A DNA stretch of 64,000 bases, taken from Tolypothrix brevis GSE-NOS-MK-07-07A (lineage in GTDB: Bacteria > Cyanobacteriota > Cyanobacteriia > Cyanobacteriales > Nostocaceae). How positions within the stretch are numbered: the stretch's first letter is position 1; every line of letters begins with the position of its first letter. Where the stretch lies: the NCBI GenBank assembly GCA_019358985.1, contig JAHHIJ010000001.1:124001-188000 (forward strand), read 5' to 3'. The notes below the pieces were generated by a model. The model was not told the origin of the DNA, did no database searches, and was given only the letters and a program-made list of their open reading frames with translations. The translations under genes were made by a program, and so were the position numbers. Of this stretch, positions 3,670 through 9,801 are shown piece after piece.

Positions 3670-5604
3670 TTAACGTTGTAGATACCTGAGGACACCACGA
3701 GCGATCGCTTCTGCCATGCGATTTTGGTATTCTGTAGTTGCTAGCCTGGGATTATCCTCGCGACCGGTCATGTAGCCTGTTTCTACAAGAATTGAGGGCA
3801 TAGAACTTTTCCTCAGAACATAAAATCTAGCTTTGCGCGTTCCCCGGTCTTTGATAGTATCGATATTTTGCAGAATACTTCGGCGAACTACTTCCGCCAA
3901 ACCATAACCGCCGTCGTAATAATAAACTTCTAACCCATTCACATCTGGGCGGTTACCAACTGCGTTAGCGTGAATACTGACAAACAAAGTCGCATTAGAT
4001 CGGGTTGCTATATCTACAATTCCTGGAAGTGAGACAAAAGTGTCAGAATTCCGCGTTAGAATTGCATTTACGCCATTTTGCTCTAAAATAGCCGCAACTC
4101 TTTGACCAATAGGTAAAACGACATTTTTTTCTTGTAGTCCCCCAATACCAACGGCACCGGAGTCTTTACCGCCATGTCCTGGGTCAATAACTACTATCGC
4201 TCGTCCTCTAGGAACTTGCCGTGACGGTAGGGGTGATCTCGGTCGGTCGTTAGTCAGTGGATCTGGGAATGGGACTCTGTTTGGTGGTGGTAGGGGAGGG
4301 AAAGGAAGTCCAGAAATGCTGGATGATGATGTTGGTACCCGCCGAGAGGGTTGTATTTCTAAAGCGACAAACTGATCGCCAACTTGGTTGAGTTCGCCAA
4401 TTTGTGCGCCCGGTGTCGGTTGAACAAAGATGGCAACAGTATTCGAGTCTTGCTGTTGCAAGCGTACTTTTAGAATGGGGCTATTAGGACCAAATACCGG
4501 ACCTCTGACAGAGTTCGCCAAGCGAGCATTGGGAATGGTGATGCGGTAAAATCCAGTGGATCTATCCCAAGAGCCGTTTGCAGATAAATTGCGATCGCCT
4601 CTAACTATCAATTGGGTGCCAGTAGCTGCCAGTTCCACAGATTGAATTGTGGCTGGCAAGTTGGCGACAACTGGTGGTGGGATGGGACGTGGGTTGCTGC
4701 TTCCGGGAACTGAAATATTACTACTTCCCGGTAATCTGACTACACCAGTATTCGGTAAAAGTATAAAACCACCAACACTACTGGTACTTGCCCGCCAGTC
4801 AGAACTATTTGTGTCCACCTGCAAAGTCATGCGAACAACAGGTGGGCTGGTTTGCAGTTGCGAAAATTGGATGCGGTTAACACCATAGCGATTAACCGAC
4901 AGATCCCGTTGCGGCAAATTTGGTGATAAAGATGCACCAGCGATATCAATATTAATTGCCCTTCTATCGTCGCTGCGATTTATTTGAATTTGAGGATTAC
5001 CCCCACTAGTGCGGACAAAAAATCCATCCCCTGTAATCCGCAAATTTTCAATTTGAGTCGTTCCTTCTGTCGCGCTGATAACCGATGCCTTAGTCGCTGG
5101 GGCTAAATTGCTCGGTTGGGTTCTCACCACATTGTAAATATTTCTAGGCGGTAAGGCGCTGGTAGCTGTTGATTGCGTCGCGGCAATCTCTGTGGGCTGA
5201 GTTGCTACTCCCTCTGCTACTGGCGTTGGTATTTGTACAGTCCAGCGGCTAGCAGTTGTGCCGACAAATTTGACCTGATTGGGGTCTAGGGTATAACCAG
5301 GAGTCAATTCGACGACGATGCGAGTTGTTTGTTCATCAAACTGCCCGACACGAATTGAGGTAATTGCACCACCTACCTGTTGCCTTAGCTGTGGACGCCC
5401 AAAGGTTGTTTCCGGCAAGTCAATTACTAAACGAGTGGGGTTAAATATTAATTGCGCTTTGGGTTGAACAGCGCCTGTAGTATTAATTTCTAGTCGATTT
5501 TGGTTGGCATCAAAACGCCAAGAGTCCAATTGCGCCGCCAAAGCTGGTGACGATAACATCAAAATACTTCCAAAAGTACCGGGTAGTAACCAGTGTAATT
5601 TCAC
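3670..5604 (-). CDS. amiC2: N-acetylmuramoyl-L-alanine amidase, AMIN domains plus Amidase_3
   Basis: Zinc amidase that cleaves the lactyl amide bond of peptidoglycan; in filamentous cyanobacteria AmiC proteins perforate the septal wall for cell-cell communication. A signal peptide (residues 1-23, ending ALAA) precedes two AMIN-type beta-rich segments (about 25-110 and 325-400), a Pro/Ser-rich linker and the catalytic domain (about 460-640) with IDPGHGGKDSGAVG, EKNVV, FVSIHAN and ILVETGYMTG supplying zinc ligands and catalytic Glu. The start is GTG at 5604 behind AGGAGAAAAGACT, the same arrangement as its paralogue at 7335-9206. Expected in the periplasm at septa. 644 aa is normal for the family. 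Confidence 0.93.
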   Translation of the reverse strand: MKLHWLLPGTFGSILMLSSPALAAQLDSWRFDANQNRLEINTTGAVQPKAQLIFNPTRLVIDLPETTFGRPQLRQQVGGAITSIRVGQFDEQTTRIVVELTPGYTLDPNQVKFVGTTASRWTVQIPTPVAEGVATQPTEIAATQSTATSALPPRNIYNVVRTQPSNLAPATKASVISATEGTTQIENLRITGDGFFVRTSGGNPQIQINRSDDRRAINIDIAGASLSPNLPQRDLSVNRYGVNRIQFSQLQTSPPVVRMTLQVDTNSSDWRASTSSVGGFILLPNTGVVRLPGSSNISVPGSSNPRPIPPPVVANLPATIQSVELAATGTQLIVRGDRNLSANGSWDRSTGFYRITIPNARLANSVRGPVFGPNSPILKVRLQQQDSNTVAIFVQPTPGAQIGELNQVGDQFVALEIQPSRRVPTSSSSISGLPFPPLPPPNRVPFPDPLTNDRPRSPLPSRQVPRGRAIVVIDPGHGGKDSGAVGIGGLQEKNVVLPIGQRVAAILEQNGVNAILTRNSDTFVSLPGIVDIATRSNATLFVSIHANAVGNRPDVNGLEVYYYDGGYGLAEVVRRSILQNIDTIKDRGTRKARFYVLRKSSMPSILVETGYMTGREDNPRLATTEYQNRMAEAIARGVLRYLQR

Positions 5605-5848: not shown

Positions 5849-6967
5849 TCATCGAACTCCTGTGGGTTTGAAACCCCGTCCTTTAGTACTTGCTTTATAT
5901 TGATTTGTGACAATTAATCCAGTTGTTCGCCGGATTAATCGCACCTTGTTTTTACTGAATTGTCCCAGTCGCTTCCAATTAACGTCAGATACAGAAATCT
6001 GTTTTTCAGTGTCGCCACTTACCCAACCGCGATATGTTTTATCGCTTTGGGTAGCCTCCACATAATCGCCCTTTCTGAAACCATGACGGGTTACAGTGCC
6101 TCCGTATTTGCGGCGTATCCCGCCCTTAGCTGGAGCCATTAAATGAAGTTGGCGACGCGATATTGGGGGGCGACGAATTACCGCAAAAGGTGCAGGAGTT
6201 ATGGCTACATCACCTTTCCAACCCATTGAGGAATGGGAAGTGATGCCGTACTTGATGAAGACACTGCACGCTAGTGCAATGCCGTCAACTGCATGGGTTG
6301 CGGGTATTGCATCGCCCTTTGAGTGTTTTTGTTTTTCTAGTCCTAGCTGGGTACGGATTTGTGCTGTTTCCCAGCCCTGAACTTGTTTGACATTGCCAAA
6401 AGCTTCTAGTCTTTCTAGTTGCCAAACCTGTCCCACCATCACCGGGCTAAACCCTTTATCCCCGCCAGCTTTGACGACTTCGTAGGCGACAGTCTCAAAA
6501 GGAAATATTACAGTTAGCTCGTTTAGGACGCGCCACTCTAAATCCCTATTAGCTCTGATGCTAGGAGGGATTTTGTTACCCCTGCGGTTATCAAAGCGCT
6601 TTTGGCGATGAGCGCGTTTATTGAATGCAACTTTACGATTGATGCGGCGACCTCTGCGACCTCGGCGCATCATGGCGCGTTGCTCCATGCGGTCTTTAAC
6701 GGTTTTAAAAGGTAGTTGGAGGTGCGCTAGCCACAAAGTGAATTTTGCGGATTGAACTCCAATACCTGTATATAGTTTGCCGGGATCTACACCAACTACT
6801 ATTGGTTGCGTTTCTTCTCCTGCGTCCACCGTTAGCTGAATTTGGAAGATTCCGAAATCGTTGTGAACAATTCGCGCTTTTCCCTCTTTCAGCCAACGTC
6901 GCGCCCTACCGGGTTTTGTTGGCATTATGGGAAGTCCCAATTTTGATAAAACTGGTACTCGTAACAT
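5849..6967 (-). CDS. isrB: IsrB-type RNA-guided nickase (HNH-less IscB, RRXRR protein)
   Basis: 372 aa from ATG 6967, which has AAAGGA eight bases upstream; an in-frame TTG at 7009 is less likely. The N-terminal PLMP-like motif (LPIMPTKPGRARRWL, residues 12-26) is followed by RuvC-I with Asp61 in GVDPG, an arginine-rich bridge helix (RRGRRGRRINRK, 101-112), RuvC-II with Glu163 in AYEVV and RuvC-III with His225 and Asp228 in THAVDG. Only about 60 residues separate RuvC-II and RuvC-III, too few for the HNH domain of IscB, so this fits IsrB, which nicks DNA with an omega-RNA guide. The C-terminus has the family block RRQLHLMAP-KGGIRRKYGG. All four RuvC residues are intact, so it may be active. 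No TnpA gene accompanies it. It sits between two amiC paralogues that are normally adjacent. Confidence 0.85.
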   Translation of the reverse strand: MLRVPVLSKLGLPIMPTKPGRARRWLKEGKARIVHNDFGIFQIQLTVDAGEETQPIVVGVDPGKLYTGIGVQSAKFTLWLAHLQLPFKTVKDRMEQRAMMRRGRRGRRINRKVAFNKRAHRQKRFDNRRGNKIPPSIRANRDLEWRVLNELTVIFPFETVAYEVVKAGGDKGFSPVMVGQVWQLERLEAFGNVKQVQGWETAQIRTQLGLEKQKHSKGDAIPATHAVDGIALACSVFIKYGITSHSSMGWKGDVAITPAPFAVIRRPPISRRQLHLMAPAKGGIRRKYGGTVTRHGFRKGDYVEATQSDKTYRGWVSGDTEKQISVSDVNWKRLGQFSKNKVRLIRRTTGLIVTNQYKASTKGRGFKPTGVR

Positions 6968-6989
6968 GGAGATAATCCTTTCGAGTTTA

Positions 6990-7200
6990 GTAATTGTCCC
7001 CTCGCCCAACTAATTACAGATGGCTCGGCATTATCCGACGACTCAACAAAAAGTCTTAAAGTATTTCCAAACTGGGGAAGCATTTGGAGGTTTTAACCGC
7101 AATTAGTCTCAGTGGGCTAGTCAGACACGTAAGATTTGTTTCTTACAAGCTCCGTCCGCGACGGTCGGAGTTATTGACACTTAGTAATCTTCGGGTTAAT
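6990..7200 (-). ncRNA. Candidate omega-RNA of the IsrB gene
   Basis: Directly upstream of isrB on the same strand, where omega-RNAs of IscB/IsrB genes are encoded. Visible stems: CTCCG-a-CCG-tcg-CGG-a-CGGAG (7150-7170), GTAAGA with TCTTAC (7129-7134, 7141-7146), CCAAA with TTTGG (7067-7071, 7083-7087) and CGG-N6-CCG within the GAGTCGTCGG segment (about 7025-7040). No ORF crosses it. If the model holds, the guide would be the 15-20 bases 5' of the first stem on the minus strand (around 7180-7220). Limits are approximate. Confidence 0.55.
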
Positions 7201-7334
7201 TACATTTGAATCAGCCAAGAATTGATGTATGAATGGATTTTTGATGTTAGATGCACAAATTCACTCAAAAGTCAAAAGTCAACAGTCAATAGAAAAAACA
7301 TGATTGTGTATTTACTCAGATTTTGTCAAATGAG

Positions 7335-9206
7335 TTATCTTTGTTTTAGATACTGGAGGACACCGCGAGCGATCGCTTCCGCCATTTGATCTTGATATTG
7401 GGGATTTTTTAGTTTAGCAATATCCTCCCTACCAGTCATGTAACCAGCTTCTACGAGAATAGAAGGCATAGAACTTTTTCTCAAAACGTAAAATCGCGCT
7501 CGTCGAACTCCTCGATCTCTAACATTCACACTTCGGAGAATGCTGCTATGAACAATACGAGCCAAACCTAAACCACTGTCGTAGTAATACGTTTCCAATC
7601 CGCTCACATCCGGACGTTCTAAACCGGCAGAATTAGTGTGGATACTGATAAATACATCAGCATTAGCTCGCTTTGCTAAATCTACTCTTCCCTGAAGACT
7701 GACAAAATAATCAGAATCTCTTGTCAATATTACTTGCACTCCATTTTGCTGCAAAATCCGCCCCAATTTTTGACTAATCGGCAAGATGATATTTTTCTCT
7801 TGTAGTCCCCCAATCCCAACGGCACCAGAGTCTTTACCACCGTGTCCAGGATCAATCATAACTACCACTCGTCCCGACGGGATGCGGGGACGACTCCGCG
7901 ATGGTGCGGGATATGGAGCATTTGGATCTGGAAATAGAACTTGATTTGGTAGCGGCAAAGGAGGTAAACCACTAATTGGGGGTATGATTCGTCCAGAACG
8001 TTGCCCAGAAAGTTTTAATTGTAAAGCTATAGTCTGGCTATTGATTTGCTTTAGTTCCCCAATTTGTACTCCCGGATTTGGTTGGACAAAAACAAGCACA
8101 GTATTTGAGCCTGACGATTGCAGACGGACTCTAGCGATTGGGCTATTGCTATTTAAAACCGGACCTTTGAGTGAAGGTGCTAATCTAGCATTATTGATGC
8201 TGATACGGAATAAACCAGAAGCTCTATCCCAGCTACCAGTAGCAGATAAAGTGCGATCGCTATCGCCTTTGAGGAGCAATTGCGTACCACCATTAACAAG
8301 TTCTACAGACTTAATTGTAGAGATATTATCTGTCGAAGTATTTGGCGCTGAAAAAGGTAAGGTGCTAGTGCTACTTGTATTATCTAGATTACTACTACCA
8401 GGCAATCTAACAACAGTACTGGGTAAAAGTACCAAACCACGGGGACTATTAACATTTACCTGCCAATCTGAACTATTTTTATCTACCTGCATACTTATAC
8501 GGACAACAGGTGGTTTTGTTTGGCGCTGAGTAAATTGAATCCGCTTGACACCATAGCGATTAATCGCGCGTTCCCGTTGCAAATTAGGCGATAAAGATGC
8601 ACCAGCAATATCGATATTAATTGACTTTCTGTCGTCGCTGCGATTTACCTCAACTTCAGGACGGACGCCATTTGTGCGGATAAAAAAACCATCTCCGGTA
8701 ACAAATACATTTTCGATTTGTGTACCCGCGTTTGTGGTATTGGCAATTTTGGCATCTGGTTTGGTAGCTCCTATCACCACATTGTAAAGATTTCTGGGGG
8801 AGTCAGGTACTTGCTTTGCGGCTGGTTTTGGTAATTGTACCGTCCAGCGACTGGCAGTTATGCCGACAAATGTCACCTGTTTGGGGTCTAGGGTATAACC
8901 AGGGCTAAGTTCAATGACTATGCGAGATGATTTTTCATTTAGCTGCTTAACACTGATAGAGCGAAATCCGCCAGTTAATTGCTGTTCCTTTGGCAATCGC
9001 TCGAATGTTGTTTCTGGTAAGTCAATGACCAAACGCGTGGGGTTGAAGAGTAATTGCGCTTTGGGTTGAACATCTCCAGTGGTATTAATTTCTAACCGAT
9101 TTTGATTAACATCAAAACGCCATGATTCCAATCTTGCAGCCAAAGTCGGTGACGATAGCATGGAGATAGTTCCAAAAGTGCCAGGTAGTAGCCAGTGTAA
9201 TCTCAC
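7335..9206 (-). CDS. amiC1: N-acetylmuramoyl-L-alanine amidase, AMIN plus Amidase_3 (paralogue)
   Basis: Paralogue of the amidase at 3670-5604 with the same layout: signal peptide beginning VRLHWLLPGTFG and ending TLAA, AMIN segments, linker, Amidase_3 domain with MIDPGHGGKDSGAVG, EKNII, FISIHTN and ILVEAGYMTG. The frame is open to 9287, but GTG at 9206 is chosen because it follows AGGAGAAAGAACT and matches the start of the paralogue exactly, giving 623 aa. The mRNA leaders of both genes also match, so the duplication included the 5' untranslated region. Likely role is septal wall drilling or remodelling; division of labour between the two copies cannot be read here. Confidence 0.93.
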   Translation of the reverse strand: MRLHWLLPGTFGTISMLSSPTLAARLESWRFDVNQNRLEINTTGDVQPKAQLLFNPTRLVIDLPETTFERLPKEQQLTGGFRSISVKQLNEKSSRIVIELSPGYTLDPKQVTFVGITASRWTVQLPKPAAKQVPDSPRNLYNVVIGATKPDAKIANTTNAGTQIENVFVTGDGFFIRTNGVRPEVEVNRSDDRKSINIDIAGASLSPNLQRERAINRYGVKRIQFTQRQTKPPVVRISMQVDKNSSDWQVNVNSPRGLVLLPSTVVRLPGSSNLDNTSSTSTLPFSAPNTSTDNISTIKSVELVNGGTQLLLKGDSDRTLSATGSWDRASGLFRISINNARLAPSLKGPVLNSNSPIARVRLQSSGSNTVLVFVQPNPGVQIGELKQINSQTIALQLKLSGQRSGRIIPPISGLPPLPLPNQVLFPDPNAPYPAPSRSRPRIPSGRVVVMIDPGHGGKDSGAVGIGGLQEKNIILPISQKLGRILQQNGVQVILTRDSDYFVSLQGRVDLAKRANADVFISIHTNSAGLERPDVSGLETYYYDSGLGLARIVHSSILRSVNVRDRGVRRARFYVLRKSSMPSILVEAGYMTGREDIAKLKNPQYQDQMAEAIARGVLQYLKQR

Positions 9207-9801
9207 AGTTCTTTCTCCTGATTCGCGTTTGCGTTCATATGTCAATCTGTCAAAATATTGGCAAATCTTCACAACCCAAGTCCCCAAATTGTCTGATGGC
9301 GTGCTTTTTTGAAATTTGCCCTGCTATCAAAATACATTTAATGATGCCATTTTTTTGCACTTTGCTTTAATTTTTCACGTTGTTAATACATCACTCATTG
9401 CATCGAGGGAGTATCCGATTGCACTAACAAAGAAATGAAATTTCCTAATTGCTTGTAAAACATCGCATCGATTATTGGTACGCTTGAAATCGCTTCAGAC
9501 TGCAAATAAATAACATTATGTTAGTAGTAATTAGAAAAAAACTGCTAAAATTTTACATTTTTAGGCGACGGATGTTAAAGATGGAAAGTTTCCAGTCCTG
9601 CCTCAGACTAAAGTAGTATCGGCTAATAGCACAAGTCCGTTGAAACGGACTATTAAATAATTTGAGTCGGATTTATCCGACTTTAGCTTTGAGACTGGGA
9701 CTTAAGTCCCAGTCTGTTGCGGCTGATAAAGGAGGATTTAGAGATGTTGGTAATGGTTAGGGCTTTCATGGCGTGCGCGGGAGCGCAGGGGGATAATTTG
9801 A
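9207..9801. other. Leader of amiC1 and hairpin-rich spacer
   Basis: No gene. Proximal part carries the amiC1 leader (GTCAATCTGTCAAAATATTG, like the amiC2 leader). At 9634-9713 three perfect hairpins follow each other: AGTCCGT-tgaa-ACGGACT, GTCGG-atttat-CCGAC and GACTGGGACTT/AAGTCCCAGTC. These look like a dispersed palindromic repeat rather than a terminator, since no T-run follows on either strand. Confidence 0.5.

Follow-up and report, generated by a model that had tools for sequence, protein, structure and literature searches.

The sequence separating two paralogous amidase genes of the cyanobacterium Tolypothrix brevis is, with high probability, a non-autonomous single-gene transposon of the IS200/IS605 superfamily (ISC/IsrB type) equipped with a guide-RNA system, as judged from the 64,000-nucleotide stretch of DNA analysed here (the window) and its relatives. 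Among the related elements examined, those that adjoin the motif ATGA are concentrated at apparent start codons of host genes: about half of them are situated directly in front of one, far beyond the chance expectation.

The Element and Its Insertion Site

The transposon comprises 1326 bp on the minus strand, and the empty sites of two relatives define both of its ends to the base. In these genomes, G001 (locus L057) and G003 (L058), the same two amidase genes (85–90% identical where read) flank an uninterrupted site, CTAAGT followed directly by ATGAG; there, CTAAGT runs straight into ATGAGTTATTC, whereas in the window the element is found in between. The original prediction, which had proposed such a comparison with insertion-free relatives, rightly described an insertion splitting a normally adjacent amiC pair, but its extent of 5849–7230 has to be corrected to 5853–7178. 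The features of the locus are as follows:

5853–7178, minus strand: whole transposon (exact ends via the empty sites in G001 and G003)
5849–6967, minus strand: isrB, 372 aa (PF14239; DtIsrB 8DMB; RuvC residues; dN/dS)
6990–7178, minus strand: omega-RNA scaffold, HEARO-type (RF02033 match, covariation, folding z-score; the 3′ end is the end of the model match)
7179–7198, minus strand: putative guide, 20 nt of the left host flank (position relative to the scaffold; length taken from DtIsrB in PMC9581776)
5849–5852, minus strand: target-adjacent motif (TAM) ATGA, directly 3′ of the element (empty-site comparison; contiguous with the guide target there)
5853–5901, minus strand: right end of the element, resembled by stretches in many other parts of the genome (genome sequence matches)
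7335–9287, minus strand: upstream AMIN/Amidase_3 paralogue, amiC-like (domain matches; adjacent pair in three relatives)
3670–5604, minus strand: downstream AMIN/Amidase_3 paralogue, amiC-like, 60% identical to the upstream one (domain matches)

The third relative with both paralogues adjacent around an empty site is G002 (L059), but AGAA replaces ATGA there (around L059 2886), so the site would be closed to the element. In G004, a genome 54% complete, the amidase site was absent among the matches of the flank search. The window insertion is devoid of a target duplication and the element adjoins a fixed short motif, as is typical of the IS200/IS605 superfamily. The right junction falls within the last sense codon of isrB, CGA, and the TAM, which is host DNA, contains the stop codon TGA. 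Provision of the stop codon by the TAM was considered as a constant trait of these elements and rejected, since apart from the window copy only a few others show it.

The IsrB Protein

The isrB frame (6967–5849) is intact. Its 372-aa product matches PF14239 (E 2.8e-44), and its residues 2–351 align with DtIsrB of 8DMB (E 8e-50), while IscB structures match the N-terminal part only. The RuvC residues D61, E163, H225 and D228 are all present, and the PLMP-like motif reads PIMP. Domain, profile and structure-sequence searches of the protein returned no HNH family, and its NCBIfam IscB score lies below the cut-off (102.8 vs. 175). Hence, the protein combines a PLMP domain, a split RuvC with the bridge helix, the absence of HNH and a length within about 350–400 aa, in agreement with the IsrB identity and the RuvC triad proposed originally. 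The C-terminal TI domain is recognizable from the alignment through residue 351, which places R333 and Q336 on R323 and Q326 of DtIsrB (the PLMP residues Pro17 and Pro20 served to verify the numbering). Overall, the protein is likely an RNA-guided DNA-nicking enzyme of the IsrB kind.

The characterized proteins DtIsrB, DsIsrB and CwIsrB, as described in PMC9581776, share with the window element PLMP, RuvC, an arginine-rich bridge helix and a TI domain without HNH, as well as a 5′ guide followed by the scaffold and a TAM of NTGA (DtIsrB) or NTG (CwIsrB, DsIsrB). The window element differs from theirs in its insertion site and guide, and its model match takes 189 nt vs. scaffold residues 21–282 in DtIsrB. 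IscB carries an HNH domain, unlike the window protein; the RNA-before-ORF layout and the RNA family are common to the window element and the HEARO RF02033/IscB elements, albeit the window RNA scores below the gathering threshold. According to the same text (PMC9581776), IscB, and through it Cas9, likely derives from IsrB.

The dN/dS values of the window isrB against five relatives (0.04–0.10, some of the dS values being saturated) indicate purifying selection. In the home genome, ten places match IsrB, from 100% down to 26% identity; in a wider set, copies at E 1e-80 or better were detected in 52 of the 145 family genomes and, at E 1e-90 or better, in 34 of the 388 class genomes. A 356-codon frame on the minus strand of the same genome (L066) joins an IsrB-like N-terminal part to unrelated C-terminal sequence and represents a broken or fused copy.

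The Omega-RNA and the Guide

At gathering scores, the Rfam search of the whole window yielded zero matches. A targeted search of the region, as had been suggested, revealed a full-length match of the HEARO model RF02033 at 7178–6990, beginning at the first base of the element; it reached E 1e-6 and 41.6 bits, i.e., less than the gathering score of 83. Since the alignment is full-length at this E-value, though below the gathering score, the RNA is considered a divergent relative of HEARO. Aligning 17 scaffolds of IsrB copies with 4 of ORF-less elements (21 in all) gave a consensus of 48 pairs, 38 of them with compensatory changes; the window scaffold keeps the consensus pairs, and its folding z-score, obtained for this single sequence, is −3.1. 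Together with the HEARO match, these findings corroborate the structured omega-RNA proposed upstream of isrB, its region being refined to a scaffold from 7178 to about 6990 and a putative guide at 7179–7198. Of 12 further IsrB-bearing loci, 8 matched HEARO at E 0.01 or better, and the four that did not were all TTGA-class.

The omega-RNA is situated directly upstream of isrB. The 20 nt of host DNA at 7198–7179, outside the left end, may serve as the guide. In the empty site, the guide target is directly followed by ATGA. With the element in place, GTCA rather than NTG(A) comes after the guide, for which reason the element should spare its own copy. The TAM of DtIsrB, NTGA, is reported to be read by R323 and Q326 (PMC9581776), and both residues are kept in the window IsrB, whose motif is ATGA. 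The suggestion that the guide might match another genome locus was not supported: when 16 nt of the guide and the adjoining NTG were searched for in the whole genome, with three mismatches allowed at most, 4 matches were obtained, the donor locus included, vs. 6 for the reversed control, and no second target rose above background.

Mobilization and Relatives without a Protein

The TnpB elements of IS200/IS605 are, like IsrB elements, RNA-guided, adjoin their motif, and often depend on a transposase acting in trans. The guide of TnpB is the 3′ end of its RNA; that of IsrB is the 5′ end, outside the left end of the element.

No transposase gene is present in the 5853–7178 element. The home genome has six Y1 matches, five of them over the cut-off and none on the window's contig; a simple hairpin string scan, which diverged hairpins would escape, tied none of the six to the ends studied here. 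For one Y1 match, on C15, a right end of the ATAA class lies 2.3 kb off on the same strand, with another frame between. At the same time, the home genome harbors no fewer than 11 elements without an ORF, about 280 to 460 bp long, each consisting of an omega-RNA and a related right end. The HEARO model matched ORF-less elements above its gathering threshold in 7 of the 18 loci searched (one from G002), and the IsrB-type ORF-less elements fell below it. In 8 of the 11 ORF-less elements, the ATG of the motif opens at least 150 codons, including those of miaB and a response regulator (these and like gene names, e.g., the permease below, are what we take the sequences to be by eye); in the remaining three, it opens 8, 37 and 46 codons. 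Given the lack of a transposase in the element and the ORF-less elements with related ends in the same genome, mobilization in trans is likely. Thus, between the two fates considered originally for an element without a transposase, the ORF-less elements and the absence of a target duplication speak for trans mobilization, and nothing found favors domestication.

Several other observations were made on the related sequences. Five loci (L042, L043, L049, L055 and L056) and 56 of 141 right-end copies among the matches listed display the same hairpin followed by ATAA, which from the opposite strand reads TTAT and recalls the TnpB-type elements. In L143 (left end 1280), an IsrB element directly follows the apparent right end of another, GGGTTTCAGACCCAGGAGTTTTG being joined to GTCAATAAC, in a tandem or nested insertion. 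All five genomes of the genus (G000–G004) are rich in dispersed short tandem repeats of the type AACTAACAACC, and the IsrB copy on C64 has one of them in its left flank. L211, by its title a contig from a Cytophagales MAG, bears the right-end pattern otherwise encountered under cyanobacterial titles, pointing to misbinning or transfer.

Concentration at Start Codons

The position of the elements relative to host genes was assessed in three sets, with the motifs placed by eye or by the first match from right-end similarity, not blind. The pattern set was collected with a right-end hairpin pattern, silent on the downstream sequence, from the 145 family genomes (41 matching) and from named genome contigs (at least 113 stretches; 79 of 80 titles were cyanobacterial among the matches listed). 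Among the matches listed, it contains 141 distinct right-end copies followed by ATGA (76), ATAA (56), GTGA (1) or none of these within the range scanned (8). The ATG opens at least 60 codons in 43 of the 76 ATGA copies among the matches listed, a count in which one insertion shared by two genomes appears twice and two further copies are close homologues of each other. By chance, 12.6% would be expected for ATGA sites that are intergenic or at gene starts, according to a crude gene call, and 20.7% for ATGA sites of any location. The start of a co-directional gene lies within 30 nt of 38 of 71 ATGA-class vs. 3 of 49 ATAA-class copies with the same hairpin, among the matches listed and after dropping copies with less than 900 nt downstream, no called gene or identical downstream 60 nt.

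The first IsrB set comprised 93 loci from 98 rows (four partial matches and row G040:C254 were excluded) and was reduced to 87 by omission of one locus without the TI region and of L126, L298, L306, L309 and L314, which have no recognizable right end. At least 60 codons are opened in 33 of its 60 distinct ATG-class insertions (58 ATGA, 2 ATGG) and in 1 of its 26 TTGA-class insertions. The second IsrB set included 42 rows from other families and one further copy of the family, 41 of the 43 being placed. Start-type frames were found there in 18 of 31 ATG-class insertions (30 of the 31 from other families; the frame of L365, among the 18, is repetitive and may be due to chance) and in 2 of 9 TTGA-class ones, with one GTGA insertion not counted. 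For the TTGA class, both sets together give 3 of 35 insertions opening at least 60 codons. In the pattern set and the first IsrB set combined, 72 of 131 distinct ATGA insertions open at least 60 codons, with 12.2% expected, among the matches listed.

For three of the start-codon insertions, a search of the genus (five genomes) with the joined flanks revealed uninterrupted sites in the four genomes other than the home genome: for miaB (3/4), the L046 gene (3/4) and the permease adjoining the second IsrB copy, on C64 (4/4), each with the ATG in place. The window copy is away from a recognizable gene start, its ATG opening 12 codons.

Several explanations of the pattern were tried and rejected. 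The pattern is not explained by right ends that provide a ribosome-binding site: among the matches listed, a purine-rich motif occurs in only 16 of 76 copies (some read AAGGAG-TTTCG-ATGA) and is unlinked to the start position, at least 60 codons being opened in 9 of 16 copies with the motif vs. 34 of 60 without it. A native ribosome-binding site within the guide was seen in 8 of 34 copies, 4 of 17 in each of the two groups. A general co-directionality with the downstream gene disappears once the start-codon insertions are removed: 17 of 33 non-start ATGA insertions are co-directional among the matches listed, i.e., there is no bias.

The Fourth Base of the Motif

In 128 placed copies (87 + 41, including one duplicate insertion, with by-eye, non-blind placement), the residue at the position of DtIsrB Q326 co-occurs with the fourth base of the motif as follows: Q with A in 124, R with G in 3 (L121, L129 and, with uncertain placement, L385) and Y with C in 1 (L396, likewise of uncertain placement). 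L126 is an H-type copy without a placeable motif. According to PMC9581776, the Q326R mutant of DtIsrB is active on NTGG as well as NTGA, and the cyanobacterial CwIsrB and DsIsrB have the TAM NTG without a fixed fourth base. Since the tested cyanobacterial enzymes read only NTG in this report, the nuclease may not set the fourth base, and the preference for ATGA may come from the transposase rather than from IsrB.

Possible Mechanism and Alternatives

A Y1 transposase acting in trans would insert the element between a 20-nt host sequence and ATGA without a target duplication. Transcription entering from the left flank would then yield an RNA with this flank as its guide and the omega-RNA scaffold behind it. 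Loaded with this RNA, IsrB would recognize the empty allele, in which the guide target precedes ATGA, and nick the non-target strand; repair from the filled chromosome copy would restore or spread the element. The promoter must be external because the guide lies outside the left end, and a start-codon site would supply one: insertion there would put the 5′-guide RNA under a host promoter, a likely reason for the concentration observed.

In its extended form, this scheme depicts the ATGA class of IsrB and HEARO-type elements as a start-codon-seeking family which settles between leader and ATG, has its guide and omega-RNA transcribed from the host promoter and leaves the gene translated from the right end, a natural change of the one TAM-reading residue from Q to R (perhaps Y) being accompanied by a shift of the insertion motif from ATGA to ATGG (perhaps ATGC). 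This combined reading is put forward tentatively, as a somewhat doubtful one; it is weakened by the report that CwIsrB and DsIsrB read only NTG (PMC9581776), and the non-start insertions, lacking co-directional bias among the matches listed, argue against the host promoter as a general rule.

It is also quite conceivable that the concentration reflects a target preference of the transposase (for ATGAA or for single-stranded gene starts) or survivorship only, with no benefit for omega-RNA expression. Among the matches listed, A follows ATGA in 59% of 71 start and 63% of 59 non-start insertions (background 35% and 31%), so ATGAA is favored about equally in both; the unbiased orientation of the non-start insertions listed and the NTG-only reading cited above (PMC9581776) point the same way. 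On the other hand, ATGAA sites alone still expect 15.4%, vs. 42 of 79 observed among the matches listed, and the harm to the host should usually be greater when an insertion separates a leader from its start codon than when it is intergenic.

As to the window copy itself, an immobile relic, i.e., an old insertion with an RNA or ends that have lost their function, seems improbable: the Rfam score is under the gathering threshold and the right-end hairpin is imperfect vs. the sister copies, but the open frame, the RuvC residues, the low dN/dS, the retained consensus pairs and the flanks still matching empty sites contradict it. Least probable by our estimate, and hardly to be expected, is a domesticated IsrB kept by the host with its RNA as an RNA-guided regulator at this site, for the intact frame under apparent purifying selection, the lack of a transposase in the element and of a Y1 match on the contig are outweighed by the site being empty in three relatives, by other copies occupying unrelated sites, and by the fact that the catalytic residues are kept and low dN/dS is expected for mobile copies too.

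Implications

Overall, the window element is a well-bounded IsrB of a known type, and the start-codon pattern and the residue–motif co-occurrence are the parts worth following. A literature search of titles and abstract starts found no description of start-codon insertion of IscB/IsrB elements. HEARO elements were reportedly noted by Weinberg et al. in 2009 to integrate at ATGA or GTGA, so the pattern may be partly in print already.

An RNA with a 5′ guide needs a promoter outside the element, and the concentration at start codons suggests, in a form open to testing, where this promoter comes from; it also predicts which host genes have an omega-RNA within their leader. Should the residue–motif co-occurrence hold up under blind mapping, it would provide evidence from nature that the specificity of the nuclease and the site of insertion change in concert, which fits the published Q326R result (PMC9581776).
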